A stretch of 13,790 bases of DNA from contig PATZ01000025.1 in NCBI GenBank assembly GCA_002712575.1, positions 1-13,790 of the forward strand, written 5' to 3'. Made by a program: the position numbers and the translations under genes. The notes below the pieces were generated by a model. That model did not search any database, had not been told where the DNA came from, and was given only the letters and a program-made list of their open reading frames with translations. Positions 1 through 13,790 of the stretch are shown here, piece by piece (position 1 is the first letter of the stretch; each line of letters starts with the position of its first letter). The DNA comes from Methanobacteriota archaeon (GTDB taxonomy: Archaea; Thermoplasmatota; Poseidoniia; Poseidoniales; Thalassarchaeaceae).

Positions 1-555
1 CCATTCAATAATTTTATCTTCATCTTTATTATCTTCAGAGATGTCAATCGATTCAATTTTTGTATTTTCAATCCGCTTGGAATAAAAACTATCTAAAAAT
101 TGATTATTTTTTTTACTCCAAATGGAAGATCCAATATGGGGATAGACCAATAAATTAGTATTCACGTCCCTTTCATAATTATCAAAAAAGAAATGTGTCC
201 TATCCCTACACATATTATCATCTTCTATAATTATTCTATAACATCCAGATGGCCATCTTATATCCGGATAAATCACATATTTTAGTAAATTATTATTCTC
301 TGGAATCAAATTTCTCATTATGACTTTCTCCGAATGTATCAAACGCGCACCCTTACCATCATACCACCCGATTCTAAAAAATGATAATTTAATCTCCTTG
401 TTAAGGGACAATTTTCTATCAATATAGATATTGATTTTCTCTTCTCCCTTTATCAAATTATCAACATTAACTAATAATTTGTGTATTCCGAGTTCATTAT
501 TCTTAGTTTCTCTCCAAGAACCTCCTCCTCTGAATAAACTCTCTGAATAATCATT
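1..555 (-). other. DMFA2-like (N,N-dimethylformamidase large-subunit-type) C-terminal domain, truncated by window edge
   Basis: Residues about 505-689 of the glycosyltransferase. The run 'S-FFRIGWYDGKGARLI' followed about 30 residues later by 'WPSGCYRIIIEDD' and then 'TNLLVYPHIGSSIWS' (637-651) recalls the family pattern 'yRlGyYgG.GARlv ... WpSG.Y...l... ... lvv.ptttwqAYN'. The classical AYN triad is not seen: the sequence reads SKKNNQFLDSFYS there. Conserved fold is plausible, amidohydrolase activity is not supported. The assignment comes from recalled motifs only. Confidence 0.45.
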
Positions 556-2067
556 TTGTAATTCTATAAAATTATTTTTTTTATGGATTTTTAATTTCTT
601 ATTATTATTAATTAGCTCATCATAAATTTTCTCCCACATACCGGCAACTTTTTTCGGAGAATGAATTTTTTTCACCCACTTCTTGCTTAAATTACTTAAC
701 GGAATTAATTTTTTATTATCCTTTAAGAAAGGTTCTAAGGTTTTTTTAATGGATTCCTTACTAAGTTCATTAACTCTCAATAAAGGGATGTCTGACCATT
801 CCGATCCTGCAAGTCTTATTGTTTTATCATTTACATAGGCCAGGACAGGTATCCCCATCGTCATAGCTTCCAGTCCTGCATTACCATAGTAGCCTGCTAC
901 CATCTGATCGATAAAAATATCAGATTTACTGATTTCATGTAAACATTCTTTGTGAGACAAATTTTGTATTAGATTAAATTTAATATTATATTTTTTAGAT
1001 AACTCATTAATTGCTGGAATTATGAATTCATTTGTTCCCTTTTTACCAGTGTTAGATGGCGCATGCGTAATTATTATTTCTTCCTTTTTTTTCTTCCTTT
1101 TTTTTCTTATTCTTATATCTGGTTGAACATGCGGGGTAATCTTCCTATCTTTCTCTCTAAATAATAAATCAGGAGTCAGAACAGTTTTTGAATTGGCAAT
1201 ACTGTAGGCTTCCAAATCCCAAGTACTGTTTGCTACATTAGTCTGAGAATTCAAGGATACTAGTTTATTATCATTTAATTTATAGAAGTCAATTGAACAT
1301 TCTCTAATCAAGTAGTTTATCTGGTAAATACGATGATTAAAAAATGAAAATCTCATACTCAAAGCACCCTTTGGCACTGGAAATATTGATTCAAAATTAG
1401 TCCATAGAGATTTTAATGAACCCACATTTTTCTTCTTAGTTTCGATTATTCTACCTTCATTATCAAAATAACGAATGATTATAGCACGAATATCATAATT
1501 TTTCTTTTCCTTCCTTTCTATAAGCCTATGTTTACCTTTTATTACAAGTGAGTTTGTTTTTGCCGGAATAACTATCCTTTTACTCCAAATGTTATTATGA
1601 TTTTTGGATTTAAAATTTATCCCGTCAATCTGAATCTGCTTATCATTTATATGTATAAATCTACCATTTATTCTTTTTTGTGTTTTCCAACTTTTATTAA
1701 AGGTAATTTTTTTAGTCCCAATACATTCTGATTGATCAAGAGTGAATTCATGGCCTCTGAATGAAGAACCTCCTGCTGTATGAACAATTGGTTTATCGTG
1801 AGGAATCTTCAAACCATTCCAATCTCTAGAGAGAGGCTCATCGTCTTTGAAATGTATAACATCGGCTTGATTTATCATTTCTTGTAAAAATGACATATCA
1901 TCTTCCATTTCTGAAATTATATAATCTGGATTAAAATGACCAATTTTTCTTTTTGAGCGATTTACAATACATATTGATTGAATATTATTGGAATATTTAT
2001 TTATTGCTGCACTAATTCTACTGCCCGATCCAGCAGAGTCACCTTCACTAAGTATGATTAATTTCAT
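1..2067 (-). CDS. Multidomain GT-B glycosyltransferase with inserted jelly roll and DMFA2-like C-terminal domain (partial, C-terminus off window)
   Basis: An uninterrupted frame runs from ATG at 2067 to the window edge (689 codons visible, no stop). It is a predicted sugar transferase, probably cytoplasmic or membrane-associated. The N-terminal Rossmann half opens with a beta strand and SEGDSAGSGSR and reaches HTAGGSSFRG (96-105). About 165 residues of beta-rich sequence follow before the GT fold resumes at WDLEAYSIANSKTVLTPDLL (283-302). The donor-binding half has THAPSNTGKKGT (334-345) and DIFIDQ...GYYGNAGLEAMTMGIPV (383-408), typical of GT4-like enzymes. After a linker near 480-505 comes a second beta domain with FFRIGWYDGKGARLI (563-577) and WPSGCY (605-610), resembling the C-terminal region of N,N-dimethylformamidase large subunits. 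The start is 4 nt after the upstream gene's stop, so the two are probably co-translated. Acceptor, donor and the role of the last domain are unknown. Confidence 0.8.
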   Translation of the reverse strand, partial: MKLIILSEGDSAGSGSRISAAINKYSNNIQSICIVNRSKRKIGHFNPDYIISEMEDDMSFLQEMINQADVIHFKDDEPLSRDWNGLKIPHDKPIVHTAGGSSFRGHEFTLDQSECIGTKKITFNKSWKTQKRINGRFIHINDKQIQIDGINFKSKNHNNIWSKRIVIPAKTNSLVIKGKHRLIERKEKKNYDIRAIIIRYFDNEGRIIETKKKNVGSLKSLWTNFESIFPVPKGALSMRFSFFNHRIYQINYLIRECSIDFYKLNDNKLVSLNSQTNVANSTWDLEAYSIANSKTVLTPDLLFREKDRKITPHVQPDIRIRKKRKKKKEEIIITHAPSNTGKKGTNEFIIPAINELSKKYNIKFNLIQNLSHKECLHEISKSDIFIDQMVAGYYGNAGLEAMTMGIPVLAYVNDKTIRLAGSEWSDIPLLRVNELSKESIKKTLEPFLKDNKKLIPLSNLSKKWVKKIHSPKKVAGMWEKIYDELINNNKKLKIHKKNNFIELQNDYSESLFRGGGSWRETKNNELGIHKLLVNVDNLIKGEEKINIYIDRKLSLNKEIKLSFFRIGWYDGKGARLIHSEKVIMRNLIPENNNLLKYVIYPDIRWPSGCYRIIIEDDNMCRDRTHFFFDNYERDVNTNLLVYPHIGSSIWSKKNNQFLDSFYSKRIENTKIESIDISEDNKDEDKIIEW
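1276..1752 (-). other. Carbohydrate-binding-like jelly-roll domain inserted in the glycosyltransferase
   Basis: Residues about 106-264 of the glycosyltransferase interrupt the N-terminal Rossmann half. The best-defined part (150-264) alternates short hydrophobic strands: IWSKRIVIPA, SLVIKGKHRL, then IRAIIIRYFDNEGRII (193-208), an aromatic WTNFESIFPVPKGALSMRFSF (222-242) and IRECSIDFYKL (254-264). The order of strand, 'YFD-x-x-G', 'W..F...F.VP.GA..MRF' and final 'SI.FY.L' strand resembles CBM4/9-type and related jelly-roll modules. Family assignment is inference by eye; a structure prediction would decide it. Confidence 0.55.
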
Positions 2068-2071
2068 TTTC

Positions 2072-2971
2072 TTACCTTCCAAGGGGGATGCTATCAAACC
2101 ATCTTTCATTTTTCTTTGATAACTCCCATAATGCTCTGCTTCTATAATCTTTAATTTCATTTATTTTTTTGGGATTCCTTCTAAGTGAATTAGTACATGA
2201 ATTAACGCATTTTTCCCAATTATTTTTCATGTAAAAAGCTCTAATTTTGATATATTCAATATCTTCATCAAAAATACCTTTCTGCTCCGAAAAATCAGAT
2301 AATTCTATTACCTCTTTGTAATTCTTAGCATTGTAATTGGCTCTAATTGCACTTTTATAATCAGAACGATTTAGATTTACTAAGCCTACTTTATTCCATA
2401 ATTTTGCTGAATGATAATTATTACCTAATCTTCCATACGACTTAGCCATTTCTCTAATTATTTCGTAATTTATATTTGAATATCTTCCTAATTTTGAAGT
2501 AAATTCTAAGAATCCCTCATCGCTATTGATTTTTCTAAACGCTATTGCAATTTTTTTTAGGTTTTTTACTTCAAACTCAATATTACCATCTATTCTATTA
2601 GAAATTTCTACTATTTCTCTCCATTTCTTCTTTTTGTAATAATATTCAATCATTATTTCTGTTGCTTCTTTAGATTCTATTTCTAGTTCACAAATCTTTT
2701 GACAGAGTGTAATAATTTTATCTATTTTTAGGAAATTGCCCTTGTATTGTAGTATATCTAATAATATCTCAGGATTATATGGTTGTTCTTTCTCTATCTC
2801 CAGAGCCCGTGATAAAATTATATCTGGATAGCCAGATTCATGCAGTTCATTTTTACGTTCAGGGGAAATTTGTTGAAGATTATCCCACTTCTTTAACTTC
2901 ATTTTGGATCTCATTTTCGAGAGATTTCGTGGTAAATCTTTTCTAACATTTATCGAATTACCTCCTCTCAT
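2072..2971 (-). CDS. TPR-like alpha-helical repeat protein
   Basis: A 299-residue protein with no signal peptide or membrane segment, made almost entirely of amphipathic helices of about 15 residues in pairs. Repeat-like units include 'NPEILLDILQYKGNFLKI', 'EATEIMIEYYYKKKKWREI', 'NYEIIREMAKSYGRLGNNY', 'DYKSAIRANYNAKNYKEVI' and 'EYIKIRAFYMKNNWEKCV', spaced like degenerate tetratricopeptide or Sel1-type repeats. Such proteins are usually scaffolds; no catalytic motif is visible. The ATG at 2971 is preceded by GGAGG eight or so bases upstream on the minus strand, fixing the start. It is the first gene of a unit with the multidomain glycosyltransferase 4 nt downstream, so it is plausibly that enzyme's partner. 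It is rich in Lys and Asn, like its neighbour. Function unassigned. Confidence 0.75.
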   Translation of the reverse strand: MRGGNSINVRKDLPRNLSKMRSKMKLKKWDNLQQISPERKNELHESGYPDIILSRALEIEKEQPYNPEILLDILQYKGNFLKIDKIITLCQKICELEIESKEATEIMIEYYYKKKKWREIVEISNRIDGNIEFEVKNLKKIAIAFRKINSDEGFLEFTSKLGRYSNINYEIIREMAKSYGRLGNNYHSAKLWNKVGLVNLNRSDYKSAIRANYNAKNYKEVIELSDFSEQKGIFDEDIEYIKIRAFYMKNNWEKCVNSCTNSLRRNPKKINEIKDYRSRALWELSKKNERWFDSIPLGR

Positions 2972-3009
2972 GTCGCCTCCAATTGCTTTGACTTGAAAAA
3001 CCCGTATTG

Positions 3010-3018
3010 TGATATAGA
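3010..3018 (-). promoter_or_regulatory. Possible TATA box for the TPR/glycosyltransferase unit
   Basis: On the minus strand the sequence reads TTCTATATC about 43 bp before the ATG at 2971. Initiation about 26 bp downstream would leave a leader of roughly 16 nt that carries the GGAGG ribosome-binding site. Weak match, position plausible. Confidence 0.35.
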
Positions 3019-3041
3019 AGAGTTTTTATCTATCGATTCAA

Positions 3042-3053
3042 TTTTATACTATA
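3042..3053 (+). promoter_or_regulatory. TATA box of the wecC-like gene; leaderless arrangement
   Basis: TTTTATACTATA is centred about 23 bp before the ATG at 3070, the distance expected if transcription starts at or next to the start codon. No Shine-Dalgarno sequence precedes the ATG, and an out-of-frame ATG lies at 3065, which also argues against a scanned or SD-led leader. Confidence 0.55.
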
Positions 3054-3069
3054 CTACATTGGTAATGCC

Positions 3070-4377
3070 ATGGTAAATGTGGCAGTAGTTGGAATGGGTT
3101 ATGTTGGCATACCAGTGGCACTAACATTGGCAAAATCTGGTCTAGAAGTCATCGGTCTTGATATTGACCAAGAAAAAGTGGATAGTTTGAATAATTCTCA
3201 ATATCCTTTGAAAGGTGAAGAGCCTGGAATACAAAACTTATTAGAAGAGGTTATTGATAAACAACTTTTCCATGCATCAGTAGATTTTTCGGATGCAGAG
3301 AATGCTGATGCTTGGTTAGTTTGTGTACAGACGCCTTTTCTAGTGGATGAATTTAGGCCTAATTTCAAAGCCTTGAAAGGCGCGGTATCAGAAATAAGTA
3401 AAAACCTCTCTCCAAATTCAGTAGTTGTAATAGAATCAACAATCCCTCCGGGAACTACGGAATCAGTTGTTATTCCACTCTTGGAATCTCATAGTAGCCT
3501 TGTTGCGGGAGAAGATTTTGGAGTGGGCCATTGTCCAGAAAGAGTTATGCCTGGTAAGTTAATTAATAATTTAACGACATATAATAGAGTCTTAGGAGGG
3601 ATAGATGATAATACTCATTCTGTCATGATAGATATTTACAGCAGGATTACTAATGGAGATTTATATTGTACAGATATCAAAACTGCAGAGGTTGTCAAAA
3701 CATTTGAAAACACGTACAGAGATGTTGAAATAGCTATAGCAAATGATTTTGCAAGATACTGCGATTCAGTAGGTGTTGATTTTTTTGAAGTACGAGATCA
3801 AGTCAATACTGTTGAGGCTAGGAATTTACATCTTCCTGGAGGAGGAGTCGGAGGGCATTGCATACCCAAAGATACATGGTTGTTAGCATATGGGTCAAAA
3901 GATAATTATGATCCAAACTTCTTAACTATGGCTCGTAAAGTCAATGATTCAATGCCAAATCATATTTCAGAAAAATGTATAAGTATAGTCAATAAATTCA
4001 ATTTAAATCCATCTGAATCCGTTGTTACTATTTTAGGACTTAGCTACTTAGAGGAAAGTGATGATGTTAGAAACTCTCCTTCAGCAACACTATACAATAT
4101 TTTAACAAAACAATTTCGAGAAGTTAGAGTTCACGATCATTATGCGGATGATTATCCAGGTATTGAAAATCAGAAAAATATCGAGGTTGCAGTCAAAGAT
4201 TCTGATCTAATTGTCATTATGGTCGGACATCAATTATATCGTAGCCTCGACTTGAGAAAAATCGGTAATTTAATGAGAAATAAACTTTTAGTCGACTCTC
4301 GAAATTCTTTTTCCAAAACTTATTTGGAAGATGAAGGATTTGCATTCGATATTTTAGGAAGGGGCAGGTCCTGGTAA
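3070..4377 (+). CDS. wecC: UDP-N-acetyl-D-mannosamine dehydrogenase (WecC-like)
   Basis: A cytoplasmic NAD-dependent four-electron oxidation of UDP-ManNAc to UDP-ManNAcA is the expected reaction. The 435-residue protein has the full three-domain layout of the UDP-glucose/GDP-mannose dehydrogenase family and normal length. The NAD motif GMGYVG is at residues 8-13; STIPPGTTE is in the first domain; the central domain has VKTFENTYRDVEIA; the catalytic cysteine is C264 in GGGVGGHCIPKDTW; the C-terminal domain starts near 315 (TILGLSY). The loop HCPERVMPG and 'LPGGGVGGHCIPKDTWLL' favour the UDP-ManNAc subgroup over UDP-Glc or UDP-GlcNAc enzymes; substrate is inference from these motifs. It is a single plus-strand gene, divergent from the TPR gene, ending 1 bp from the converging aminotransferase gene. 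No UDP-GlcNAc 2-epimerase, its usual partner, is in the window. Confidence 0.85.
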   Translation: MVNVAVVGMGYVGIPVALTLAKSGLEVIGLDIDQEKVDSLNNSQYPLKGEEPGIQNLLEEVIDKQLFHASVDFSDAENADAWLVCVQTPFLVDEFRPNFKALKGAVSEISKNLSPNSVVVIESTIPPGTTESVVIPLLESHSSLVAGEDFGVGHCPERVMPGKLINNLTTYNRVLGGIDDNTHSVMIDIYSRITNGDLYCTDIKTAEVVKTFENTYRDVEIAIANDFARYCDSVGVDFFEVRDQVNTVEARNLHLPGGGVGGHCIPKDTWLLAYGSKDNYDPNFLTMARKVNDSMPNHISEKCISIVNKFNLNPSESVVTILGLSYLEESDDVRNSPSATLYNILTKQFREVRVHDHYADDYPGIENQKNIEVAVKDSDLIVIMVGHQLYRSLDLRKIGNLMRNKLLVDSRNSFSKTYLEDEGFAFDILGRGRSW

Positions 4378-4378
4378 T

Positions 4379-5470
4379 TTAGTCCTTAGACCATTCTATG
4401 ACTGATGCTATTATTTTCTCTACATCGTTTAAACTCAATCCGGGATGAACCGGTAAAGATATTACTTCCCTGACTAATTCTTGAGCAATTGTACAATCTG
4501 ACTTGTATTTTTGCAAATGAGGATAGTCACAAATCAATCTAGGATAATATTTTCCTGTACCAATATCTCTTTCTTTCAGATATTTTGCCAAATTCTCCCT
4601 ATTTTCTACCCTTATTGTGTATTGATGCCAAGAGTGTTCAAATCCATTTTTGACCTTTGGCGTTTTTATTTTATCAATGTTAGATAATTTTTCATTAAAT
4701 ATTGAAGCATTTCTTTTTCTCAACTCATTAAACTTACTTAATTTGCCTAACTGAACTCTTCCTATCGCAGCACCAATATCTGTCATCCTAAGATTCAATC
4801 CAAATCGATCATGTTCATAAACACCTAATTTACTATCGGGTCTACCATGGTTACGTATACTATTCAATTTGTTATATGTTTCTTCATCATTAGTTGTAAC
4901 CATTCCTCCTTCTCCAGTGGTCATATTTTTTGTTGGATAAAATGAGAAACACTCAACATCTCCAAAGTTACCAACCATCTTTCCATCAATTGAAGATCCA
5001 TGGGCTTGTGCTGCATCACCGATTAATTTCAATCCATATTCGTCGGCTATTTTTTGAATTTCTCTCATTTCTGCAGGCATTCCATACAAATGAACTGGCA
5101 TAATTGCCTTAGTTTTATCAGTTATTTGTTCAAGTATAGATTCTGGCGACAAATTATAACTCTCTTCATTTATATCGCCAAAAACGGGAGTAGCACCACA
5201 ACTAATTATGCTGTTAGCGGTTGCAACAAAGGTCAACGGGGAAGTAATCACTTCATCTCCAGCATTTATCCCCGTAGCAGAAAGAGCAAGACTTAGAGCA
5301 GAAGTGCCATTATTAACCGCACATGCATATTTACAACCTATAAATTTTGCAAACTCTTCTTCAAATTTTACAGTTTCGGGGCCACTGGCAATCATGCCAC
5401 TCTTGATCACTCTTGTAACTTCCATTATTTCTTGTTCATCTAATAGTGGTTTTGCAATATTTATTTTCAT
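4379..5470 (-). CDS. wbpE: DegT/DnrJ/EryC1/StrS-family sugar aminotransferase (WbpE-like)
   Basis: A PLP-dependent fold-type I aminotransferase of 363 residues, the usual length. It is expected to transaminate C3 of UDP-2-acetamido-3-oxo-glucuronate, using glutamate. Visible motifs are NNGTSALSLAL (53-63) and SPLTFVATANSI (77-88) for cofactor phosphate binding, GDAAQAHGS (151-159) with the Asp that contacts the pyridine nitrogen, and FSFYPTKNMTTGEGG (175-189) with the Schiff-base lysine K181. The family is certain; the exact substrate comes from context, since it follows the WbpD-like and 3-dehydrogenase genes. The ATG at 5470 lies 4 nt after the wbpD stop and has an AGGTGA ribosome-binding site inside the end of wbpD. 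Last gene of a three-gene minus-strand operon, meeting wecC tail to tail. Confidence 0.85.
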   Translation of the reverse strand: MKINIAKPLLDEQEIMEVTRVIKSGMIASGPETVKFEEEFAKFIGCKYACAVNNGTSALSLALSATGINAGDEVITSPLTFVATANSIISCGATPVFGDINEESYNLSPESILEQITDKTKAIMPVHLYGMPAEMREIQKIADEYGLKLIGDAAQAHGSSIDGKMVGNFGDVECFSFYPTKNMTTGEGGMVTTNDEETYNKLNSIRNHGRPDSKLGVYEHDRFGLNLRMTDIGAAIGRVQLGKLSKFNELRKRNASIFNEKLSNIDKIKTPKVKNGFEHSWHQYTIRVENRENLAKYLKERDIGTGKYYPRLICDYPHLQKYKSDCTIAQELVREVISLPVHPGLSLNDVEKIIASVIEWSKD

Positions 5471-5474
5471 TTTC

Positions 5475-6059
5475 TCACCTATTATTGTTCTTTAATAAAA
5501 CCTCTTCATCAGTTTTTTCACACTTAAATAATCCACCCTCTAGTCCTCTTTTTTCTCCAATATTGAGAGTCTCTCCAGAAATAGTAACCCAATCAATAAT
5601 CTTTGCAGGTACTCCCAGTACTAATGAATGGGGGTATGTATCCTTTGTCACGACTGCTCCAGCAGCCACCATACACCATTCGCCTAATATTATCCCACAT
5701 CTTATTGTTGCATTAGCACCTACGGAAACTCCATTTTTAACGACCGTCTTTGATAATCTTGATTCATCCCAAATATGTGCCCTGGGTTTCAAATCATTTG
5801 TAAAAACTGCATGAGGTCCGATAAATACACCATTTCCTATTTCTACTCCGTTATAGATACTAACTCCATTTTGTATTTTACAGTTATCTCCAATTATCAC
5901 GCCACTATCAACATAAACATCTTTACCAATAATACAATTTTTACCTATCTTAGAACCATTTCTTACGTGAGCAAAATGCCAGATTGAAGTTCCTTCTCCG
6001 ATCTGCGCTCCCTCTTCTACAACAGCTCTAGAATCTATCTTTATGCCATCATTAATCAA
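5475..6059 (-). CDS. wbpD: UDP-2-acetamido-3-amino-2,3-dideoxyglucuronate N-acetyltransferase (WbpD-like)
   Basis: A left-handed beta-helix acetyltransferase of 194 residues, matching the length of WbpD/WlbB enzymes. These transfer acetyl from acetyl-CoA to the 3-amino group to give the 2,3-diacetamido sugar. Hexapeptide repeats run from about residue 3 to 155 (IDSRAVVEEGAQIGEG, IGKNCIIGKDVYV, IGDNCKIQNGVSIYNGVEIG, VSVGANATIRCGIILGE). TSIWHFAHV (24-32) and GPHAVFTNDLKPR (81-93) are characteristic of this subgroup. The start is a TTG at 6059, overlapping the upstream stop by 8 bp. An in-frame TGA lies 9 nt upstream and no in-frame ATG occurs near the N-terminus, so TTG is the only reasonable choice. 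AGGAG lies about 12 nt upstream. Middle gene of the operon; translation is probably coupled to the dehydrogenase gene. Confidence 0.87.
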   Translation of the reverse strand: MINDGIKIDSRAVVEEGAQIGEGTSIWHFAHVRNGSKIGKNCIIGKDVYVDSGVIIGDNCKIQNGVSIYNGVEIGNGVFIGPHAVFTNDLKPRAHIWDESRLSKTVVKNGVSVGANATIRCGIILGEWCMVAAGAVVTKDTYPHSLVLGVPAKIIDWVTISGETLNIGEKRGLEGGLFKCEKTDEEVLLKNNNR

Positions 6060-7035
6060 GAATAATCACTTCTCCTGTCTTCAATGATTGAACTGCTGCT
6101 TCTGCAACTTTTAAAGCCAATAAACCATCTTCACCTGGTACGGATGGAATATCATTATTATCAATAACCTGAACAAAATTCTTTATTTCTAGAAATAAAG
6201 GCTCTTGTTTTTCGATATGAACTTCTCTTTTTCCAAACTCAATTTTTGGTGGGAATTGACTTCTGCTGTCCGGCTCGACAAACTTACTCTCGGAAATAGT
6301 GATACTCTGCTTCATATAGTCTAATTCCATAAATCCCTTTTCGCATGTTAAGGATAGGGTTCTTACTTTCATTGGAGTAATCCAATTAACTTCTAAGACA
6401 GCAGATTTATTATTTTCAAACTTTATCATTATTGATACATGATCTTCAAATTCTATATCATTATGTGATCCTCCTGTCGCATAAACAGATACGGGTTTAC
6501 TTTGCATTATTGATATTGAATTATCTATATCATGAATTCCTAAGTCCAGAATAACTCCAACATCTCTAATCCTTCCTGGAAAATTTGATACTCGCCGAGA
6601 TGAAATAGTTATTATTTCTCCTAATTCATCAGAATTTAGTAATTTTTTTGCCCCTTCAATAACCGGGTTAAACCTCTCTATATGGCCAACTGACAATTTA
6701 ACATCAGAGTTCTTCGCCATTTCAATCATCTTTTTTCCATTTTCATAACTGTCAGCAATTGGTTTTTCAACTAATACATCAATTCCATTTTCAATGGCTA
6801 ATTTAGCTACTTCTAAATGAGTAAACGTTGGTGTAGAGATTATCAGGCCGTCAATATCCAAGGAATTCACTGCTTCTTTTAGATCTGTAAAGCCCGCTGT
6901 ATTAAATTTTTTACTCACTCTTTCAATCGCATCTTCATCTTTATCACAGACTCCTGCAAGAACGCCAAGTTCCGAACAAACACGTGCATGATTGAATCCC
7001 ATTGATCCGACTCCTACTACTAAAATCTGTGCCAT
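6052..7035 (-). CDS. Gfo/Idh/MocA-family dehydrogenase, probable UDP-sugar 3-dehydrogenase
   Basis: A 327-residue NAD(P)-dependent oxidoreductase of normal family length. The dinucleotide motif GVGSMG is at 8-13, the conserved EKP at 90-92, and DLGIHDID at 164-171 with a likely catalytic His168 in the GFO_IDH_MocA C-terminal domain. In this operon it would oxidise C3 of UDP-N-acetylglucosaminuronate so that the downstream aminotransferase can act, the job done by WbpB in Pseudomonas. As I recall it, WbpB/WlbA begins with a different nucleotide motif (GAAGYIAPRH), so this looks like another subgroup of the family. The role is inferred from context and the family call is secure. First gene of the operon; its last 8 bp overlap the wbpD start. 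Confidence 0.78.
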   Translation of the reverse strand: MAQILVVGVGSMGFNHARVCSELGVLAGVCDKDEDAIERVSKKFNTAGFTDLKEAVNSLDIDGLIISTPTFTHLEVAKLAIENGIDVLVEKPIADSYENGKKMIEMAKNSDVKLSVGHIERFNPVIEGAKKLLNSDELGEIITISSRRVSNFPGRIRDVGVILDLGIHDIDNSISIMQSKPVSVYATGGSHNDIEFEDHVSIMIKFENNKSAVLEVNWITPMKVRTLSLTCEKGFMELDYMKQSITISESKFVEPDSRSQFPPKIEFGKREVHIEKQEPLFLEIKNFVQVIDNNDIPSVPGEDGLLALKVAEAAVQSLKTGEVIILD

Positions 7036-7066
7036 GCTTTACTGAGTGCTAATGTCTATTAGAACT

Positions 7067-7079
7067 TAATTGATAAAAA
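7067..7079 (-). promoter_or_regulatory. Possible TATA region of the dehydrogenase-wbpD-wbpE operon
   Basis: The minus strand reads TTTTTATCAATTA about 35-40 bp before the ATG at 7035, with a weaker TTCTAATAG nearer (7056-7064). No Shine-Dalgarno sequence precedes the ATG. Either element could be the TATA box and the choice is uncertain. Confidence 0.3.
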
Positions 7080-7100
7080 CATGTTGACAGTTGGGCCTTG

Positions 7101-7111
7101 TTAATATAATA
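7101..7111 (+). promoter_or_regulatory. TATA box of the wbpA-like gene; decides its start
   Basis: TTAATATAATA is centred about 24 bp before ATG 7130. This fits leaderless transcription from that ATG and places the alternative TTG at 7091 upstream of the promoter. Confidence 0.55.
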
Positions 7112-7129
7112 TTACTCATCGCGAGTGTT

Positions 7130-8488
7130 ATGGGTTGGGATGAATCTTTTTTGAGTAGAGTTGACTCTAAATCACTCGTTATAGGGATTGTAGGTTTGGG
7201 TTATGTCGGATTACCTACTGCCCTTTCATTTCATCAAGCCGGATTTAAGATATGGGGGATTGATATCTCTACTAGAGTTATAGATGATTTAAATAATGAA
7301 ATTAATCCGACTGGAGATCCATCTCTGAATGGAACTATTCCTAATCCTAATAATGAAATGTGGAATATTACTTCTTCCTTTTCTGATTCAATACCAAACT
7401 GTGATGTCGTATTAGTCACGGTTCCTACTCCAGTAAATGATAATAAAAGTATGGACTCATCACATGTTCATGATTCGGGTAATTCAATATTCGACAATAT
7501 TAAATCCAATTCCAAAACCATAGTAATACTTGAAAGTACAGTTTACCCAGGTTCTACTAATGAGATTTGGAAACCGTTGATTAGAAAAAATAATCTTATT
7601 TTGGGCAAAGATTTGATTATTGCCTATTGCCCAGAAAGACATAATCCAGGTGATAAAGAAAATAATATTACCTCGGTTGCTAGAGTAATTGGGTGCGATA
7701 ATGAACAAATAGGAAATGACTTAGTCTCACTATATTCTGAATTAACATCTGGATTAGTAAAATTTGTTGGAACGGTTGAAGTAGCCGAATCTGCAAAACT
7801 TGTTGAGAATATCCAAAGAGACATCAATATTGCATTGGTTAATGAATTAGCAACCATATTTCCTCACATGGGAGTAGATATTGAAGATGTTCTAGATGCA
7901 GCTTCGACAAAATGGAATTTTCATAGATATAAACCAGGACTAGGCGTAGGAGGACATTGTATACCTGTAGATCCATATTTTATCATTGATAAAGCTAAAT
8001 TTAAAGGTATTAGCGCAAATCTCGTTACTTCAGCAAGAAATATCAATGAAATGATGCCTGATGTAGTTTCCAGAGACATAATAAAAATACTTAATCACCA
8101 TTACAAAGATAAGCAAAACTTCAGAGTTCTCATATTAGGATGGTCATATAAAGCCGATATTGGTGATAGTCGAGAGTCTCCATCCATGCATTTATATCAT
8201 CATTTGAAAGAAAATAACATTTCTGTATCTTGTTATGATCCTTATTTTTCAAAAAATCGCCTGTCCGATAATTATAATTTTATAGACAATATTGATGATT
8301 TATCTAATGTAAGTATGATTATTTTAGCCACTGCACATTCAAAATTTCTTAATTTAGAGTGGCATAATTATCTAAAAATAATGGATAAACCACTTATTTA
8401 TGACGGCCGAAGATGTTTAAATATCACAGAAATGGAAGCTAGCGGATGGTTAGTAAATGCAATTGGTAAACCTGTTATTTTATCATAG
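7130..8488 (+). CDS. wbpA: UDP-N-acetyl-D-glucosamine 6-dehydrogenase (WbpA/TviB-like)
   Basis: NAD-dependent oxidation of UDP-GlcNAc to UDP-GlcNAcA is the expected reaction, the first step of diacetamido-uronate synthesis. The 452-residue protein has NAD motif GLGYVG (22-27), TVPTP and STVYPGST in the first domain, AYCPERHNPGD with the 'PER-NPGD' loop typical of WbpA/TviB/WbpO, and the catalytic cysteine C277 in GLGVGGHCIPVDP. A complete C-terminal UDP-binding domain starts near 'RVLILGWSYKADIGDSRESPS'. I chose ATG 7130 over the longer TTG 7091 frame because a TATA box lies between them and the extra residues precede the normal family N-terminus. A roughly 15-residue extension before the first beta strand remains. 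It is divergent from the dehydrogenase operon that would use its product, and its last 14 bp overlap the converging wzt gene. Confidence 0.85.
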   Translation: MGWDESFLSRVDSKSLVIGIVGLGYVGLPTALSFHQAGFKIWGIDISTRVIDDLNNEINPTGDPSLNGTIPNPNNEMWNITSSFSDSIPNCDVVLVTVPTPVNDNKSMDSSHVHDSGNSIFDNIKSNSKTIVILESTVYPGSTNEIWKPLIRKNNLILGKDLIIAYCPERHNPGDKENNITSVARVIGCDNEQIGNDLVSLYSELTSGLVKFVGTVEVAESAKLVENIQRDINIALVNELATIFPHMGVDIEDVLDAASTKWNFHRYKPGLGVGGHCIPVDPYFIIDKAKFKGISANLVTSARNINEMMPDVVSRDIIKILNHHYKDKQNFRVLILGWSYKADIGDSRESPSMHLYHHLKENNISVSCYDPYFSKNRLSDNYNFIDNIDDLSNVSMIILATAHSKFLNLEWHNYLKIMDKPLIYDGRRCLNITEMEASGWLVNAIGKPVILS

Positions 8489-9188
8489 ATGAATATTGTT
8501 CTATGACATCATTTATTTCACCATCTGATACCAATTTTCCATTATTTAGTAGTAATCCTCTCTCGCACAATTCCTTTGCCAAACCTAGAGAATGTGTCGA
8601 AATAATAACTGTCCCGGAATTTCTGATAAATTCCTTTAATCGCGCCTGAGCCTTTTTCCTGAATTCAATGTCTCCAACACCTAATGTTTCATCAATAAGT
8701 AATATCGAAGGATTTAATGCAGTGATAAATCCAAAACCTAATTTCCCCCTCATTCCTGTTGAATAACCTCCAAATCTTCTATCAAAAGCTTCTCCCAGAC
8801 CTGCAAAGTCTTCTATTGATTTTGAAAAATCGTCTATTTCATTTTCTTTTATTCCATAGGCTTTACTTAATTCTTGGATATTCTGCCTACCTGAAAGATC
8901 AGGTAAAAAACCTGGATCAACGCCAGCTAAAAGTATCACTCTCCCATAAGTAGTAATTTCTCCTTCTGATGGCCTTAAAAGTCCTCCAAGTGCCTTCAGT
9001 AGAGTGGATTTTCCTGCTCCATTTCTTCCTAGAAGAGCTATGGTTTCTCCTTCTTCGATATCGAAAGAAATTGAATCAAGCGCTTTAAATCCATCTATAG
9101 ACCCCCAAGGAGTTTTTTTAGTTCTGGAAAACTCATGATATTCCAAGCTCAATTTTTTGACTGTTATAGATTCTCTGTTCAAGCCCAT
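8475..9188 (-). CDS. wzt: ABC exporter ATP-binding subunit for polysaccharide (Wzt/TagH type)
   Basis: Cytoplasmic ATPase that powers export of a lipid-linked glycan with the Wzm-like permease. The 237 residues hold one complete nucleotide-binding domain: Walker A GRNGAGKST (54-62), signature YSTGMRGKL (142-150) in the form usual for polysaccharide exporters, Walker B ILLIDE (162-167) and the switch histidine H199 in STHS. There is no C-terminal glycan-binding domain like that of E. coli O9a Wzt, so this is the short form. I chose ATG 9188, which follows GGAGG by 8 nt, over GTG 9203, which lies within that ribosome-binding site. The ATG overlaps the wzm stop by 10 bp, so the pair is translationally coupled. 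The 3' end overlaps the converging wbpA by 14 bp. Confidence 0.88.
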   Translation of the reverse strand: MGLNRESITVKKLSLEYHEFSRTKKTPWGSIDGFKALDSISFDIEEGETIALLGRNGAGKSTLLKALGGLLRPSEGEITTYGRVILLAGVDPGFLPDLSGRQNIQELSKAYGIKENEIDDFSKSIEDFAGLGEAFDRRFGGYSTGMRGKLGFGFITALNPSILLIDETLGVGDIEFRKKAQARLKEFIRNSGTVIISTHSLGLAKELCERGLLLNNGKLVSDGEINDVIEQYSSMIK

Positions 9189-9994
9189 GTAGTCATCCTC
9201 CACCTAAATTTATCGACTCGTGAATATCCGAAATAGGCTGATATCAAACAAATAATTAATATTAATCCCGAAACAAGTGGATTCACGTCAAGTATTATAG
9301 ATTCTTGATTTGCTTGATACCTTGCAAATTCAACAAAATATGTAAAGGGATTGAATAAATTTATTTTGTAATGTATCCCCTCAGTTGCCACCATTGGATA
9401 CATAACTGGGCCTGCAAAGAACATAAGCCTTAGAAAGAGATTAATAATATTTAATAAATCAGGAAAACGTCTGATAGTCAATGAGATACTTAGTCCTATT
9501 CCTTCAAAAACTAGCCCAATAATCTGCGAAATTACAATAAGAAAAAATATTCCGACAAATGAAATATTGTATACCAATAATAGAACTCCGATGACTCCAG
9601 ATGTGGTTGCAAGAGTGTCAATACACCTGTATCTTATTGAAGAAAACAAAATTGTCTTGGTTCGTACTCTTTCGGCCTTGAATCCTCCGGTCAAGTCTCT
9701 GATAGAAATACATCCTGATTTCAGGGAATTTTGCAGTACTTGATATGTTGATATTCCTATGAATAAGGATTCTGGATCAGTTCTACCTCTCAAAATCGTC
9801 AATACAAAAAGATAAATCATTGAAGTAATTACTGGATCCATAACCATCCAGGCCAATCCTAAACGTTTTTTTCCAGAAACATTCCTTAATTTCTTTTTTA
9901 GAATAAATGCAACTCTTGATTTATCAATATTTTTTTCATCTTTAGATAGCAAACCTACTTCTATGCAATGTTTTTTATTAATAATTCTCTTCAT
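9179..9994 (-). CDS. wzm: ABC-2 type polysaccharide export permease (Wzm/TagG type)
   Basis: Integral membrane subunit of the exporter, 271 residues, a usual length for Wzm. A charged cytoplasmic N-terminus (KKKLRNVSGKKRLGLAWMVMDPV, an amphipathic interface helix then the first membrane segment) is followed by hydrophobic segments at about 49-68, 125-142, 146-172, 183-202 and 239-258. The region FFAGPVMYPM (192-201) followed by LFNPFTYFVEFAR (213-225) is the typical conserved stretch of ABC-2 O-antigen and teichoic-acid permeases. The ATG at 9994 lies inside the end of metK (17 bp overlap), and the 3' end overlaps wzt. Both overlaps imply a single metK-wzm-wzt transcript. The substrate is presumably the amino-uronate-containing glycan built by neighbouring genes (inference). 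Confidence 0.85.
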   Translation of the reverse strand: MKRIINKKHCIEVGLLSKDEKNIDKSRVAFILKKKLRNVSGKKRLGLAWMVMDPVITSMIYLFVLTILRGRTDPESLFIGISTYQVLQNSLKSGCISIRDLTGGFKAERVRTKTILFSSIRYRCIDTLATTSGVIGVLLLVYNISFVGIFFLIVISQIIGLVFEGIGLSISLTIRRFPDLLNIINLFLRLMFFAGPVMYPMVATEGIHYKINLFNPFTYFVEFARYQANQESIILDVNPLVSGLILIICLISAYFGYSRVDKFRWRMTTWA

Positions 9995-11258
9995 AATACA
10001 ATTCCCTTATCTTTCTTATAATTTCTTGATCAAGATTTTCCCATGGAAAATAACCTTCCTCCGCTGTTCTTCCAAAATGCCCTCCACTTGAGGTTATTGA
10101 GTATCTTGTTGAACGTAAATTCAGTTTTTCTATTATTGATAGAGGTCTAAAGTCAAAAATCTCTGTTACAATTTTCCTTATTTTGCTCCTTTCTATTTCA
10201 TTTCCGTTTTGCCCTAAATTTACATTTATACTAATCGGTTCTGCAACTCCAATTGAATACGAAATTTGTATCTCAAAATATTTCGTAATCCCACTTGCCA
10301 CAATATGCTTTGCAACCCATCTTGCTGCATATGCTGCAGACCTATCCACCTTACTAGGATCTTTGCCACTAAAAGCTCCTCCGCCATGTCTTCCAAAACC
10401 TCCATAGGTGTCGACTATTAACTTCCTTCCGGTGAGGCCAGCATCAGCATGAGGGCCTCCTTTGCAAAATCTACCTGTGCCGTTAACAATTAATTTAATG
10501 TCGTTGTGTAATAATTCTGAGGGAATTACAGGCTCTATGATATGCTTCTTAACTTCTGCAATAATAAACTCTCTTTCTTCAATCTCAGTTTTGAACAAAC
10601 TCCCAATCATATCGTCATGTTGAATGGCAATCACTATTGTATCTACACATATTGGTTCTCCTTGTTGTGAATACCTTATGGTGACTTGACTTTTACCATC
10701 AGGACGCGCCCAATTTAGAACTCCGATTTTCCTCTTTTTTGTCATTTCAAGAGTGATCTTATGAGCAAGTAATATTGGTAAAGGCATGAATGTCCCATTA
10801 GTTGCTTCGAATTTTTCTGACTCATCACATGCAAATCCGAAAATTATTCCCTGATCGCCTGCACCTTGTTCCAAATCTAAGCCAACGCCCTCTGTAACTC
10901 CTTGGTCAATTTCTTCTGATTGTTGGCTTATTAAGAGGATCACTTTACATGAATTATCATCGGCTGCATCCATTCCAACATTTACATCTGTATAGCCGAC
11001 CTCTATTGCGCAATTACGAGCAATTTCTTCAAAATCAATATCAATTTCTTTATTCATTGTAATTTCTCCTCCAATGATGATATAACTTCTTTCATCAAAA
11101 TTTTTGTCTGCATCTAATCCCTTGACAAATACTTCTACTGCAACTCTAGCATTAGGATCTAATTCCAGACAAGCATCCAATATGGAGTCAGAAATAAAGT
11201 CACAAAGTTTATCTGGATGGCCTGAAGTAACAGATTCCGAAGTAAAAAGGTAATCCAT
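9978..11258 (-). CDS. metK: S-adenosylmethionine synthetase, bacterial-type MetK
   Basis: Makes S-adenosylmethionine from methionine and ATP in the cytosol. The 426-residue sequence shows bacterial/eukaryotic-type motifs throughout: SESVTSGHPDKLCD (7-20), GAGDQGIIFGFA (132-143), GTGRFCKGGPHADAGLTGRK (260-279), the phosphate loop GGGAFSGKDPSKVDRSAAY (292-310) and a C-terminal HFGR...FPWE. It is somewhat longer than E. coli MetK (about 384). Many archaea use the very divergent archaeal MAT, so a MetK here suggests acquisition from bacteria. First gene of a unit with wzm and wzt, and divergent from ahcY across 110 bp. No Shine-Dalgarno sequence precedes ATG 11258; a TATA box 31 bp upstream gives a very short leader. 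Confidence 0.95.
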   Translation of the reverse strand: MDYLFTSESVTSGHPDKLCDFISDSILDACLELDPNARVAVEVFVKGLDADKNFDERSYIIIGGEITMNKEIDIDFEEIARNCAIEVGYTDVNVGMDAADDNSCKVILLISQQSEEIDQGVTEGVGLDLEQGAGDQGIIFGFACDESEKFEATNGTFMPLPILLAHKITLEMTKKRKIGVLNWARPDGKSQVTIRYSQQGEPICVDTIVIAIQHDDMIGSLFKTEIEEREFIIAEVKKHIIEPVIPSELLHNDIKLIVNGTGRFCKGGPHADAGLTGRKLIVDTYGGFGRHGGGAFSGKDPSKVDRSAAYAARWVAKHIVASGITKYFEIQISYSIGVAEPISINVNLGQNGNEIERSKIRKIVTEIFDFRPLSIIEKLNLRSTRYSITSSGGHFGRTAEEGYFPWENLDQEIIRKIRELYYEENY

Positions 11259-11284
11259 AAACCGGCCAAACTAGACTTGCACTT

Positions 11285-11292
11285 GAAATATA
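11285..11292 (-). promoter_or_regulatory. TATA box of metK-wzm-wzt
   Basis: The minus strand reads TATATTTC (AGTATATTTC with flank), centred about 31 bp before ATG 11258, so the leader would be only about 5 nt. No ribosome-binding site is visible between them. Confidence 0.5.
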
Positions 11293-11299
11293 CTATTGA

Positions 11300-11319
11300 T
11301 ATGTGTATTTTGTATGTGT
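11300..11319 (+). repeat. Direct repeat TATGTGT x2, candidate operator between metK and ahcY
   Basis: TATGTGT occurs at 11300-11306 and again at 11313-11319, 13 bp start to start, in the space between the two divergent TATA boxes (11285-11292 and 11339-11346). A regulator bound here could act on both SAM-cycle transcripts. In such AT-rich DNA a chance 7-bp repeat is quite possible. Confidence 0.3.
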
Positions 11320-11338
11320 GCAGCATTCTAATACATAG

Positions 11339-11346
11339 TATAAAAT
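11339..11346 (+). promoter_or_regulatory. TATA box of ahcY; leaderless arrangement
   Basis: TATAAAAT is centred 26 bp before ATG 11369, the classic archaeal TATA-to-start distance if the mRNA begins at the start codon. No ribosome-binding site precedes the ATG. Confidence 0.65.
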
Positions 11347-11368
11347 ATCTATCGCTTATCGTAATTTT

Positions 11369-12802
11369 ATGAATATATTGAATGTGAACGAAATAGGAAG
11401 ACATGATTATATTATCTCGGATATTAAATTAGCAGAATTCGGCAGAAAAGAAATTGATATCGCCCAACATGAAATGCCAGGTTTAATGTCAATAAGAGAT
11501 AAGTATTCTCCTTCTAAGCCATTAGAAGGAGTTAGAATAACTGGTTCTTTACACATGACGATACAAACAGCGGTACTGATAGAAACTCTTGTTGATCTAG
11601 GTGCTTCAGTTAGATGGGCGAGCTGCAATATTTACTCTACCCAAGATCATGCAGCAGCTGCTATTGCTGAACGTGGAATTTCTGTATTTGCTTGGAAAGG
11701 AGAAACTCTTGAAGAATATTGGGATTGCACCTTAATGGCGTTACAACATCCTGATGGAAAAGGGCCTCAATTAATTGTAGATGATGGTGGAGATGCCACA
11801 TTACTAATACACAAGGGTTATGAATTAGAAAATGGTAGTGACTGGGTAAATACAGAATCCTCTAATCATGAAGAAGATTGTATCAAGAATCTACTAAGAA
11901 AGACATACGAAATGAATCCTAATTTCTGGACATCTTTAATCGAAGAATGCCGAGGAGTTTCCGAAGAAACTACAACAGGAGTACAAAGATTATATCAAAT
12001 GGTTTCAGATAATAATTTATTATTTCCAGCGATAAACGTCAATGACTCTGTGACTAAATCTAAATTTGATAATTTATATGGATGCCGAGAATCTTTAGTT
12101 GACGCTCTAAAGAGAGCAACAGATGTAATGATTGCAGGTAAAACGGCGGTTGTGTGTGGTTACGGAGATGTTGGAAAAGGCTCAGCTCAAGCCCTCAAGG
12201 CTCATGGAGCTAAGGTAATAGTCACAGAGATAGACCCTATATGCGCTTTACAGGCTGCTATGGAAGGATTCTCGGTTCAAACAATAGAAGATACTCTAGG
12301 TCTTGCGGATATTTATGTAACAGCAACAGGAAACACAGATATCATAACTTTAGAACATATGAAAATGATGAAAGATCAAGCAATTGTATGCAATATAGGA
12401 CATTTTGACAATGAAATTCAAGTTTATGAACTAGATAATTATTCCTCTGTTACGAAATTAAATATTAAAGATCAGGTCGATAAATATACATTTTATCAAG
12501 GAAATAGTATTTATCTTCTAGCTTCAGGACGTTTAGTAAATCTTGGTTGTGCAACTGGTCATCCAAGCTTTGTTATGTCTAATAGTTTTGCAAATCAAAC
12601 TCTTGCACAAATAGATTTGTGGAAAAATCGAGATAAATATGAGAATATAGTATACACGCTACCTAAATATCTAGACGAAGAAGTAGCTAGACTACATTTG
12701 GAAAAAATAGGCTGCAGGTTAACCAAACTTTCACAAAAGCAAGCAGATTACATCAATGTCCCAATTCACGGACCTTTCAAGAAAGAAGAATATCGTTATT
12801 AA
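11369..12802 (+). CDS. ahcY: Adenosylhomocysteinase (S-adenosyl-L-homocysteine hydrolase), long bacterial-type
   Basis: Hydrolyses S-adenosylhomocysteine to adenosine and homocysteine, relieving product inhibition of methyltransferases. The 477 residues match the long bacterial form. Motifs: [16 protein letters not shown] (25-40), [15 protein letters not shown] (60-74), [14 protein letters not shown] (87-100), [29 protein letters not shown] (224-242), NAD loop GYGDVGKG (264-271), GHFDNE (344-349), and the C-terminal FKKEEYRY with the Lys and Tyr that reach into the partner subunit's NAD site. The roughly 40-residue insertion seen in bacterial enzymes (about 148-195) is present, while typical archaeal enzymes are shorter and lack this tail. 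Divergent from metK. Its TAA overlaps the stop of the converging short dehydrogenase in the 4-bp sequence TTAA. Confidence 0.96.
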
Positions 12803-13584
12803 TCGCCTTTCAGTCTCTGGTTATCCTTTAAAATCGCATCTATTAGTTCATATCGTATCTCCAGTGAACTTAACAAGTGTCTCAATGCAATTGTATCCTT
12901 TGGTAAACATGCACCTGCAAATCCCTTTTGATTATTTTTTGGAGAGTTGAGATGAGAAGGTCCAATTTGTTGTTCTTGTGGCGTGGTGATTATGTTCTTC
13001 ACAACATCCCAGTCTTCTCCTAGTTTTTCTGAAAGATCATGGAACTGATTAGCAAAAATAACTTTCATAGCATAAAATGAGTTTTTTGCATACTTAACCA
13101 ATTCTGCTTGAGTTGGAGAGACTACAAAGATATTTTCTTCATTAACTACTCCTGCATCCTTATGTTGCTTAATTACTATTTCAGATATTTCATTGTTCTC
13201 CGATCCTATGACTAAAATATCTTGATTTTGGAAATCATTTAATGATGTTTTTGATCTTAGAAACTCGGGCGAACAACAAATGTTCAAATTGGAGTATTTT
13301 GTTTGTAATTTTTTAGTAGTGCCTGGTATTACAGTACTTTTAATTACCGCATTATATCCATCAGGTAATTGTTCAAATATTGATTCTACTATACTAATAT
13401 CACACTCTCCAGTTTTTGGATCACTAGGAGTGGGAACTGCAATATAAGCAAAATTAGTATTCTCTGTAACATTTTTTATTGATGTTCCTAGTTTTGGATC
13501 ATGTAAAAAAATTTCATGAAAATCTTGAAAACCATTCTTAATGGCATTTCCAACTACTCCTACTCCGATAATCCCAATCTTCAT
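12799..13584 (-). CDS. Short UDP-glucose dehydrogenase-like protein lacking the C-terminal UDP-binding domain
   Basis: A 261-residue member of the UDP-glucose/GDP-mannose dehydrogenase family, against about 430 for the full-length relatives in this window. It keeps the NAD-binding domain (GVGVVG 7-12; AVPTPSD 49-55; STVIPGTTK 83-91), the loop CSPEFLR (104-110) typical of UDP-glucose enzymes, the central-domain [18 protein letters not shown] (163-180), and the catalytic cysteine C226 in [11 protein letters not shown]. The frame ends about 30 residues after that, so the third domain is absent. The stop is clean and shared with the ahcY terminus, so this looks like a natural short form, not a frameshift. 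Expected product UDP-glucuronate; activity without domain three is uncertain. The start ATG 13584 has no evident ribosome-binding site. It lies 53 bp after tfb on the same strand. Confidence 0.75.
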
Positions 13585-13625
13585 TGATTCTCAAACCATG
13601 GTAGAGGGCGTATGCTTTGACTTCT

Positions 13626-13633
13626 TTGTATAA
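13626..13633 (-). promoter_or_regulatory. Possible TATA box of the short dehydrogenase gene
   Basis: TTATACAA on the minus strand, about 46 bp before ATG 13584, just after the tfb stop. It would give a leader of about 20 nt that contains an out-of-frame ATG at 13599 followed at once by GTT and TGA. Readthrough from tfb is the alternative. Confidence 0.3.
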
Positions 13634-13637
13634 CTAA

Positions 13638-13790
13638 TTATTTTTCTGTGAGCCTGTTTAATATTTTTAACAAACCTCTGAGAGTTACTTCACTAATACC
13701 GGAAGCCTTGCAAACTTCATTTTGTGTTCTTTTAGAAGAGCTTTGTTGTGAGGCCTTATACAATATAACGCCGGCAATTCCGGACGGTTT
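13638..13790 (-). CDS. tfb: Transcription initiation factor B (TFB), C-terminal end only
   Basis: The last 50 codons and TAA of a gene entering from the right edge. The visible sequence, KPSGIAGVILYKAS followed by KRTQNEVCKASGISEVTLRG and LLKILNRLTEK, matches the end of the second cyclin repeat of archaeal TFB/TFIIB. The family pattern is 'SPAGIAAAALYIAS ... RTQ.EVA..AGVTEVTIRNRYKEL'. TFB recruits RNA polymerase to TATA-bound TBP and contacts the B-recognition element with this repeat. It is the clearest evidence that the DNA is archaeal. Whether it is the main TFB or one of several paralogues cannot be told from this piece. Confidence 0.85.
   Translation of the reverse strand, partial: KPSGIAGVILYKASQQSSSKRTQNEVCKASGISEVTLRGLLKILNRLTEK

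Follow-up and report, generated by a model that had tools for sequence, protein, structure and literature searches.

A gene at the start of the window (the whole 13,790-nucleotide stretch analysed here, positions 1-13790 of a 29,026-base contig) encodes a chain that, as judged from its motifs and alignments, is a real and unusual combination of known parts: a GT-B transferase, an insert within it and a DMFA2-derived tail. Our preferred explanation, to which we give a probability of about 0.55, is that the protein is a GT-B transferase encoded in a surface-polysaccharide locus that also has an ABC exporter, and that it carries the beta-rich insert and the DMFA2-derived tail as accessory modules. 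The transferase half would move a sugar while the chain under construction, or a partner protein, is held by the added insert and tail; for the DMFA2 part, binding or scaffolding is a more probable role than iron-dependent amide cleavage. The analysis shows the C-half of the transferase, where the insert lies and roughly how long it is, the sequence relation of the tail to DMFA2, and repeated DMFA2-transferase fusions lacking the iron site in the order. We infer the roles of insert and tail, the cytosolic location and the link to export. The weakest points are that the chain was seen once and that its C-terminus is cut off.

The gene occupies positions 2067..1 on the minus strand as a stop-free frame of 689 aa and exits the contig at the contig start, so the C-terminus of the protein is missing. 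The ATG at 2067 has GGAAGGT immediately 5' of it; a start at the ATG at 2160 would make the frame overlap with the ORF before it. The motifs GGSSFRG (residues 99-105), WDLEAYS (283-289), RIGWYDGKGARL (565-576) and WPSGCY (605-610) are spread over the chain, which was divided as follows.

1750..2067, minus strand: predicted GT-B N-terminal half, residues 1-106 (alignment with L010-L016; block pLDDT)
1222..1749, minus strand: beta-rich segment, residues ~107-282, jelly-roll-like, fold unproven (motif spacing; two low-confidence models)
598..1221, minus strand: predicted GT-B C-terminal half, residues 283-490 (tblastn; phylum draw; sub-cut-off Pfam Glycos_transf_1)
148..555, minus strand: predicted DMFA2-type N-terminal beta sandwich, residues 505-640 (ESLFRGGGSW, RIGWYDGKGARL, WPSGCY)
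340..375, minus strand: RIGWYDGKGARL motif, residues 565-576
1..147, minus strand: predicted start of the ThuA-like domain of DMFA2, residues 641-689, ended by the contig edge (alignments)

Residues ~283-485 are assigned by sequence similarity as the C-half of a GT-B glycosyltransferase. The C-half matched an annotated glycosyltransferase over residues 335-482 (E 2e-11; tblastn, plasmids), and Pfam Glycos_transf_1 matched the protein with E 0.0017 at 18.4 bits, below its gathering cut-off of 26.4. The landmarks of the C-half are TPDLL, HAPSN..KGT, IDQ and E400. Among 389 genomes drawn from the phylum, the C-half had matches in 16 besides its own; every match fell within residues 278-491, in an open frame of 227-383 aa. 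One of these frames has an internal stop, and one match (L007) lies at a contig edge. On the N-terminal side, GGSSFRG aligns at the HGSEIR motif of the relatives, with TPDLL as the next common landmark (alignment with L010-L016), and the N-half was modelled with alternating helices and strands at block pLDDT 66-91 to residue 100, except for 45 at residues 41-50. EX7E is the motif of retaining GT4 enzymes. In the window protein its second Glu is Glu400 and its first position is Gly392, so the full motif is absent; the first Glu is absent in eight aligned relatives too, as read from the alignment. Because of Gly392 and the change of HGSEIR to GGSSFR, transferase activity is not assured. Two alignments of the transferase (A5 and A6) gave no match in viral contigs. 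The single distant viral-contig match of a further one (A7) was misaligned with the window protein and was excluded from fold modelling.

The spacing between the two conserved transferase motifs, GSxxR and HxP(S/T) (counted from R to H), is 230 residues in the window protein versus 52-66 in ten relatives. The spacing script scanned 19 relative loci and found a usable motif pair in these ten (L008, L010-L017, L020), five of which belong to one family; nine loci gave no pair. For the best plasmid relatives (L004 and L005), where the script gave no pair, spacings of ~81 and ~87 were counted by eye. The window protein thus has an excess of ~145-180 residues directly after the N-domain motif that reads HGSEIR in the relatives, which bears out an earlier note on this DNA that a segment of about 165 residues interrupts the transferase at this place. 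The same note likened the segment to a jelly roll. Two low-confidence AlphaFold models, one full-length and one of the insert alone, predicted it as all-beta with 10 and 11 strands (mean pLDDT of the insert-alone model, 45.0). The structural matches listed for the insert include jelly rolls, GOLD domains and carbohydrate-binding modules, none of them below E 1e-3, and we regard a jelly-roll fold as plausible. By sequence, the insert alone had no match among plasmids (best E 7) or in the PDB (E up to 10), and in 273 genomes of the order it gave two other matches at about chance level (E 0.005-0.007). The stretch around WDLEAYS was also considered as a DMFA2 start and was ruled out at -3.7 bits.

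The tail scored 35.2 bits against a 15-sequence DMFA2 profile, for which the best of 5000 shuffled sequences reached 8.3 bits. When the 12-residue RIGWYDGKGARL motif was masked, the score fell to 0.3 bits, under several of the shuffles, and the profile rows had been chosen partly by a RIGWYDGKGARL-type motif; the sequence evidence for the tail therefore consists of this motif together with the ordered anchors. RxGxYxGxGxR followed by WxSGxY, the signature of the family, is present in the tail in that order (alignment A10). PF20254 was the only Pfam match of the tail alone, non-significant at E 0.11 and 12.4 bits (gathering 27) and in register over profile positions 3-77 of 374, on a piece shortened by the contig edge. 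The relation to DMFA2 that the earlier note had proposed was thus obtained, with a correction: the tail matches the start of the family and not its catalytic C-terminal part. By sequence, the visible tail probably represents the Ig-like domain I plus the very start of the ThuA-like domain III of the dimethylformamidase family, following the domain scheme given in the portion of PMC7686228 used here. Iron-ligand positions were fixed by alignment to the PDB structure. The Tyr399 column holds Lys653 in the window protein (alignments A9 and A10; a gap in the looser tree alignment), and the Tyr440 column holds Tyr662 in all three alignments. The His519/Glu521 (HxE) region falls past the contig start; because the catalytic part of the tail lies off the contig, loss of an iron ligand is visible at one position only. 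The tail alone had no match among plasmids or phages (best E 0.9 and 6, respectively) or by sequence in the PDB (E up to 10), and the tail alignment had none in viral contigs.

Similarly, the whole window protein had no match in viral contigs or phages and none by sequence in the PDB (E up to 1), a single-sequence scan of genome contigs gave no counterpart, and among plasmids only the transferase part matched, in four records. The full-length AlphaFold model had a mean pLDDT of 49.6; dimethylformamidase was not among the 50 structural matches listed for this low-confidence model in either fold comparison, which excludes nothing. The tail profile had matches in 8 of 318 genomes of the order, and an earlier version in 3 of 389 genomes of the phylum, the source genome included in both counts. 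Among the matching genomes of the order, the GT-B/insert/DMFA2 order occurred in the source genome only. The earlier note knew of no characterised enzyme with this domain order, and the sets searched here gave no counterpart, with the qualification that DMFA2-transferase fusions of another domain order exist.

Six such proteins are encoded in five genomes of this archaeal order, each with DMFA2 linked to a GT2 transferase. TPRs lie between the two parts in five of them (L032, L058, L059, L060 and L061) and are absent from L057, which comes from the same family as the window genome; the DMFA2-TPR-GT2 proteins are ~1030-1090 aa long (L032, at 7075-10335). None of Tyr399, Tyr440, His519 and Glu521 is kept in any of the six GT2-fused rows, and all four are kept in 16/16 stand-alone rows (14 bacterial and 2 archaeal), of which the bacterial ones are not a random sample because most were found via the RxGxYxG motif. 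Four loci (L022, L023, L024 and L028) were left out of this comparison because they lack that motif; in a pattern search GHDEYW was retained in L023, L024 and L028 and LAYN in the first two, and no DMFA2 start was seen in the frame read in L022. Other motifs are common to the fused proteins: RNWWGG occurs in five of six and GPMRYW in four (GPTRYW and PGMRFW in the other two). This argues against simple decay of the fused DMFA2. The DMFA2 rows of the six form one clade with support of 100/99. An ABC exporter was found in the fetched stretch of four of the six fusions (L032, by Pfam, ~4 kb away; L057, L059 and L061, by eye), and none was seen in that of L058 (a 7.4-kb contig) or L060. Since all six fusions lack the iron site and four lie near ABC exporters, a DMFA2-derived module, probably non-hydrolytic, recurs as a glycosyltransferase partner in this order. 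The six may not share the function of the window tail: RNWWGG is absent from that tail, and the tree places it only uncertainly, on a branch of length 3.67 next to three Chloroflexi rows and outside the fused clade. No significant similarity links the ORF upstream of the window gene to the TPRs of the fusions (best E 0.68), which counts against the preferred explanation.

Other DMFA2 proteins of the order carry LamG (L031/L033 and L003/L034, in two genomes); those at L031:379-2736 and L003:2-2026 keep the full dimethylformamidase iron site, and the L003 protein matches 6lvb over residues 9-665 (E 2e-91). Several genes around the DMFA2 loci were recorded in passing. DUF6395 proteins are encoded in two fusion loci, at L032:12475-13755 and, in the adjacent gene, at L057:3084-5018, the latter with a methyltransferase-type-like domain ahead of DUF6395. 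A TupA-like ATP-grasp gene (PF14305; L032:10340-11122) directly follows the DMFA2-TPR-GT2 gene, and a similar ORF, judged by eye, follows the fusion gene in L059 (6896-7675). Beside the DMFA2 genes found in two rhizobia and one Paracoccaceae bacterium (L025-L027) lie genes annotated for polysaccharide export and pyruvyl transferase in L025, an SLBB-domain protein in L026 and exopolysaccharide transport in L027.

The neighbours of the window gene include the following.

2072..2971, minus strand: ORF of 299 aa, possibly helical-repeat/TPR-like (Pfam TPR_2, E 0.22 only)
3070..7035, mixed strands: predicted sugar cassette (NCBIfam)
8475..9994, minus strand: Wzt-like ATPase (242 aa) and Wzm-like permease (271 aa) (Pfam; NCBIfam below equivalog cut-offs)

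The sugar cassette consists of a UDP-ManNAc dehydrogenase type on the plus strand and a PseC/DegT-type aminotransferase, a NeuD-type acetyltransferase and a UDP-GlcNAc 3-dehydrogenase type, all on the minus strand; only the nucleotide-sugar dehydrogenase subfamily model passed in NCBIfam, the specific models falling below their cut-offs. We take this gene set to resemble the WbpA/B/D/E route to diacetamido-uronic acids. The window has two full nucleotide-sugar dehydrogenases and one short one, a 261-aa ORF at 12799-13584 whose NAD domain match begins at profile position 68 and which has no match to the C-terminal UDP-binding domain; it is probably short or degraded. Matches to archaeal NCBIfam models, below cut-off, were obtained for several genes of the window, and elsewhere on the contig there is, for example, a gene for a TFB-like factor (L046, by eye). 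The two families among the genomes listed for the order would fit Poseidoniales (marine group II), which is probably the order concerned. A secreted-looking, zinc metallopeptidase-like ORF of 1176 aa with HELGHNHQ, open at the contig end, was also noted by eye (L046:11998-15525). In O-antigen export the transporter can recognise a modified chain end via a carbohydrate-binding domain, according to the part of PMC9445017 used here. With only 242 aa, the Wzt-like ATPase of the window has no room for such a domain, which suggests, no more, that recognition moved from the exporter ATPase to domains on the transferase.

We considered whether the insert and tail are instead modules for protein docking or oligomerisation that bind no glycan; partners could be, for example, the protein from the upstream ORF or the ABC exporter. 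This is possible, on the doubtful side. Consistent with it are the TPRs in most of the GT2-fused relatives, the separate upstream ORF, which ends four bases ahead of the ATG at 2067, and the alpha2beta2 organisation of dimethylformamidase, whose large subunit is inactive alone (PMC7686228, in the portion used here). However, the TPR assignment of the upstream ORF is weak. Alternatively, the protein could be bifunctional, its tail an active amidase that removes N-acyl groups from polymer amino sugars and its GT-B half the enzyme that transfers them. Both solved DMFA2-related proteins found, dimethylformamidase and N-acetyl-(R)-beta-phenylalanine acylase, are by name hydrolases of N-acyl bonds; some genes at the locus are of a type that makes N-acetylated amino-sugar uronic acids, and Tyr662 stands at the Tyr440 ligand column. 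Against this, Tyr399 is replaced by Lys653 and the entire iron site is gone in the six GT-fused relatives, and we consider an active amidase unlikely.

That the transferase and DMFA2 parts are not together in the cell, because of an assembly chimera or a decaying gene, appears very unlikely. The chain is a single observation from a gene at a contig end with no second copy in the sets searched, and the source is a draft genome (1.59 Mb, 83.69% complete, 5.25% contamination). On the other hand, the 689-codon frame is uninterrupted through all domain junctions in a window without ambiguous bases, GC3 is similar throughout (0.20-0.28 for N-half, insert, C-half and tail; 0.21-0.26 for eleven other measured window genes), and five further genomes of the order also encode DMFA2 fused to GT2.

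The preferred explanation, a transferase with two accessory modules, can be extended to the order as a whole, in a form we regard as speculative and rather improbable. In this order the DMFA2 fold would no longer act as an iron amidase but as a module that handles glycan without hydrolysing it. It would be joined to glycosyltransferases of more than one fold (GT-B in the window protein; GT2, in the opposite domain order, elsewhere) and would work with ABC exporters in which the ATPase has no carbohydrate-binding domain of the usual kind, so that the chain would be read before export; the window protein would add a second reading domain inside the transferase. Many DMFA2 proteins are named dimethylformamidase in public plasmid records. 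Because the GT-fused clade lost the four iron-site residues yet shares other motifs, our results suggest that for these archaea such a label would be misleading and that the fold has taken on a second role in the assembly of surface glycans. In the open-licence PMC literature we found no paper linking the dimethylformamidase beta subunit with a glycosyltransferase, none on PF20254 and at most one on insertions in GT-B transferases. For an order known here from draft genomes alone, the findings give a concrete starting point, open to testing, for how exported surface polysaccharide might be built and selected.

Among known systems, the C-terminal carbohydrate-binding domain of Wzt (2r5o, 6o14) was compared and no sequence relation to the window protein was found. 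The dimethylformamidase large subunit of Paracoccus (6lvb; PMC7686228) shares RxGxYxGxGxR, WxSGxY and the anchor order with the tail, and N-acetyl-(R)-beta-phenylalanine acylase (8huy) has the same family start and anchor order; unlike both, the window tail lies C-terminal to a glycosyltransferase, has Lys653 for Tyr399 and has its catalytic part off the contig. The short GT-B relatives, namely the Priestia megaterium 'glycosyltransferase family 1 protein' (L004), an Agrobacterium glycosyltransferase (L005) and the archaeal L010-L017 and L020, share with the window protein the C-half motifs HAPSN..KGT, IDQ/IDW and YG...EAM at 21-31% identity to its C-half, but are ordinary ORFs of ~300-370 aa without insert or tail. 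The GT2 fusions, with TPRs (L032, L058-L061) or without (L057), resemble the window protein in being archaeal, in combining DMFA2 with a glycosyltransferase and in having lost Tyr399, and differ from it in that their DMFA2 part is N-terminal and their transferase is of the GT2 type.
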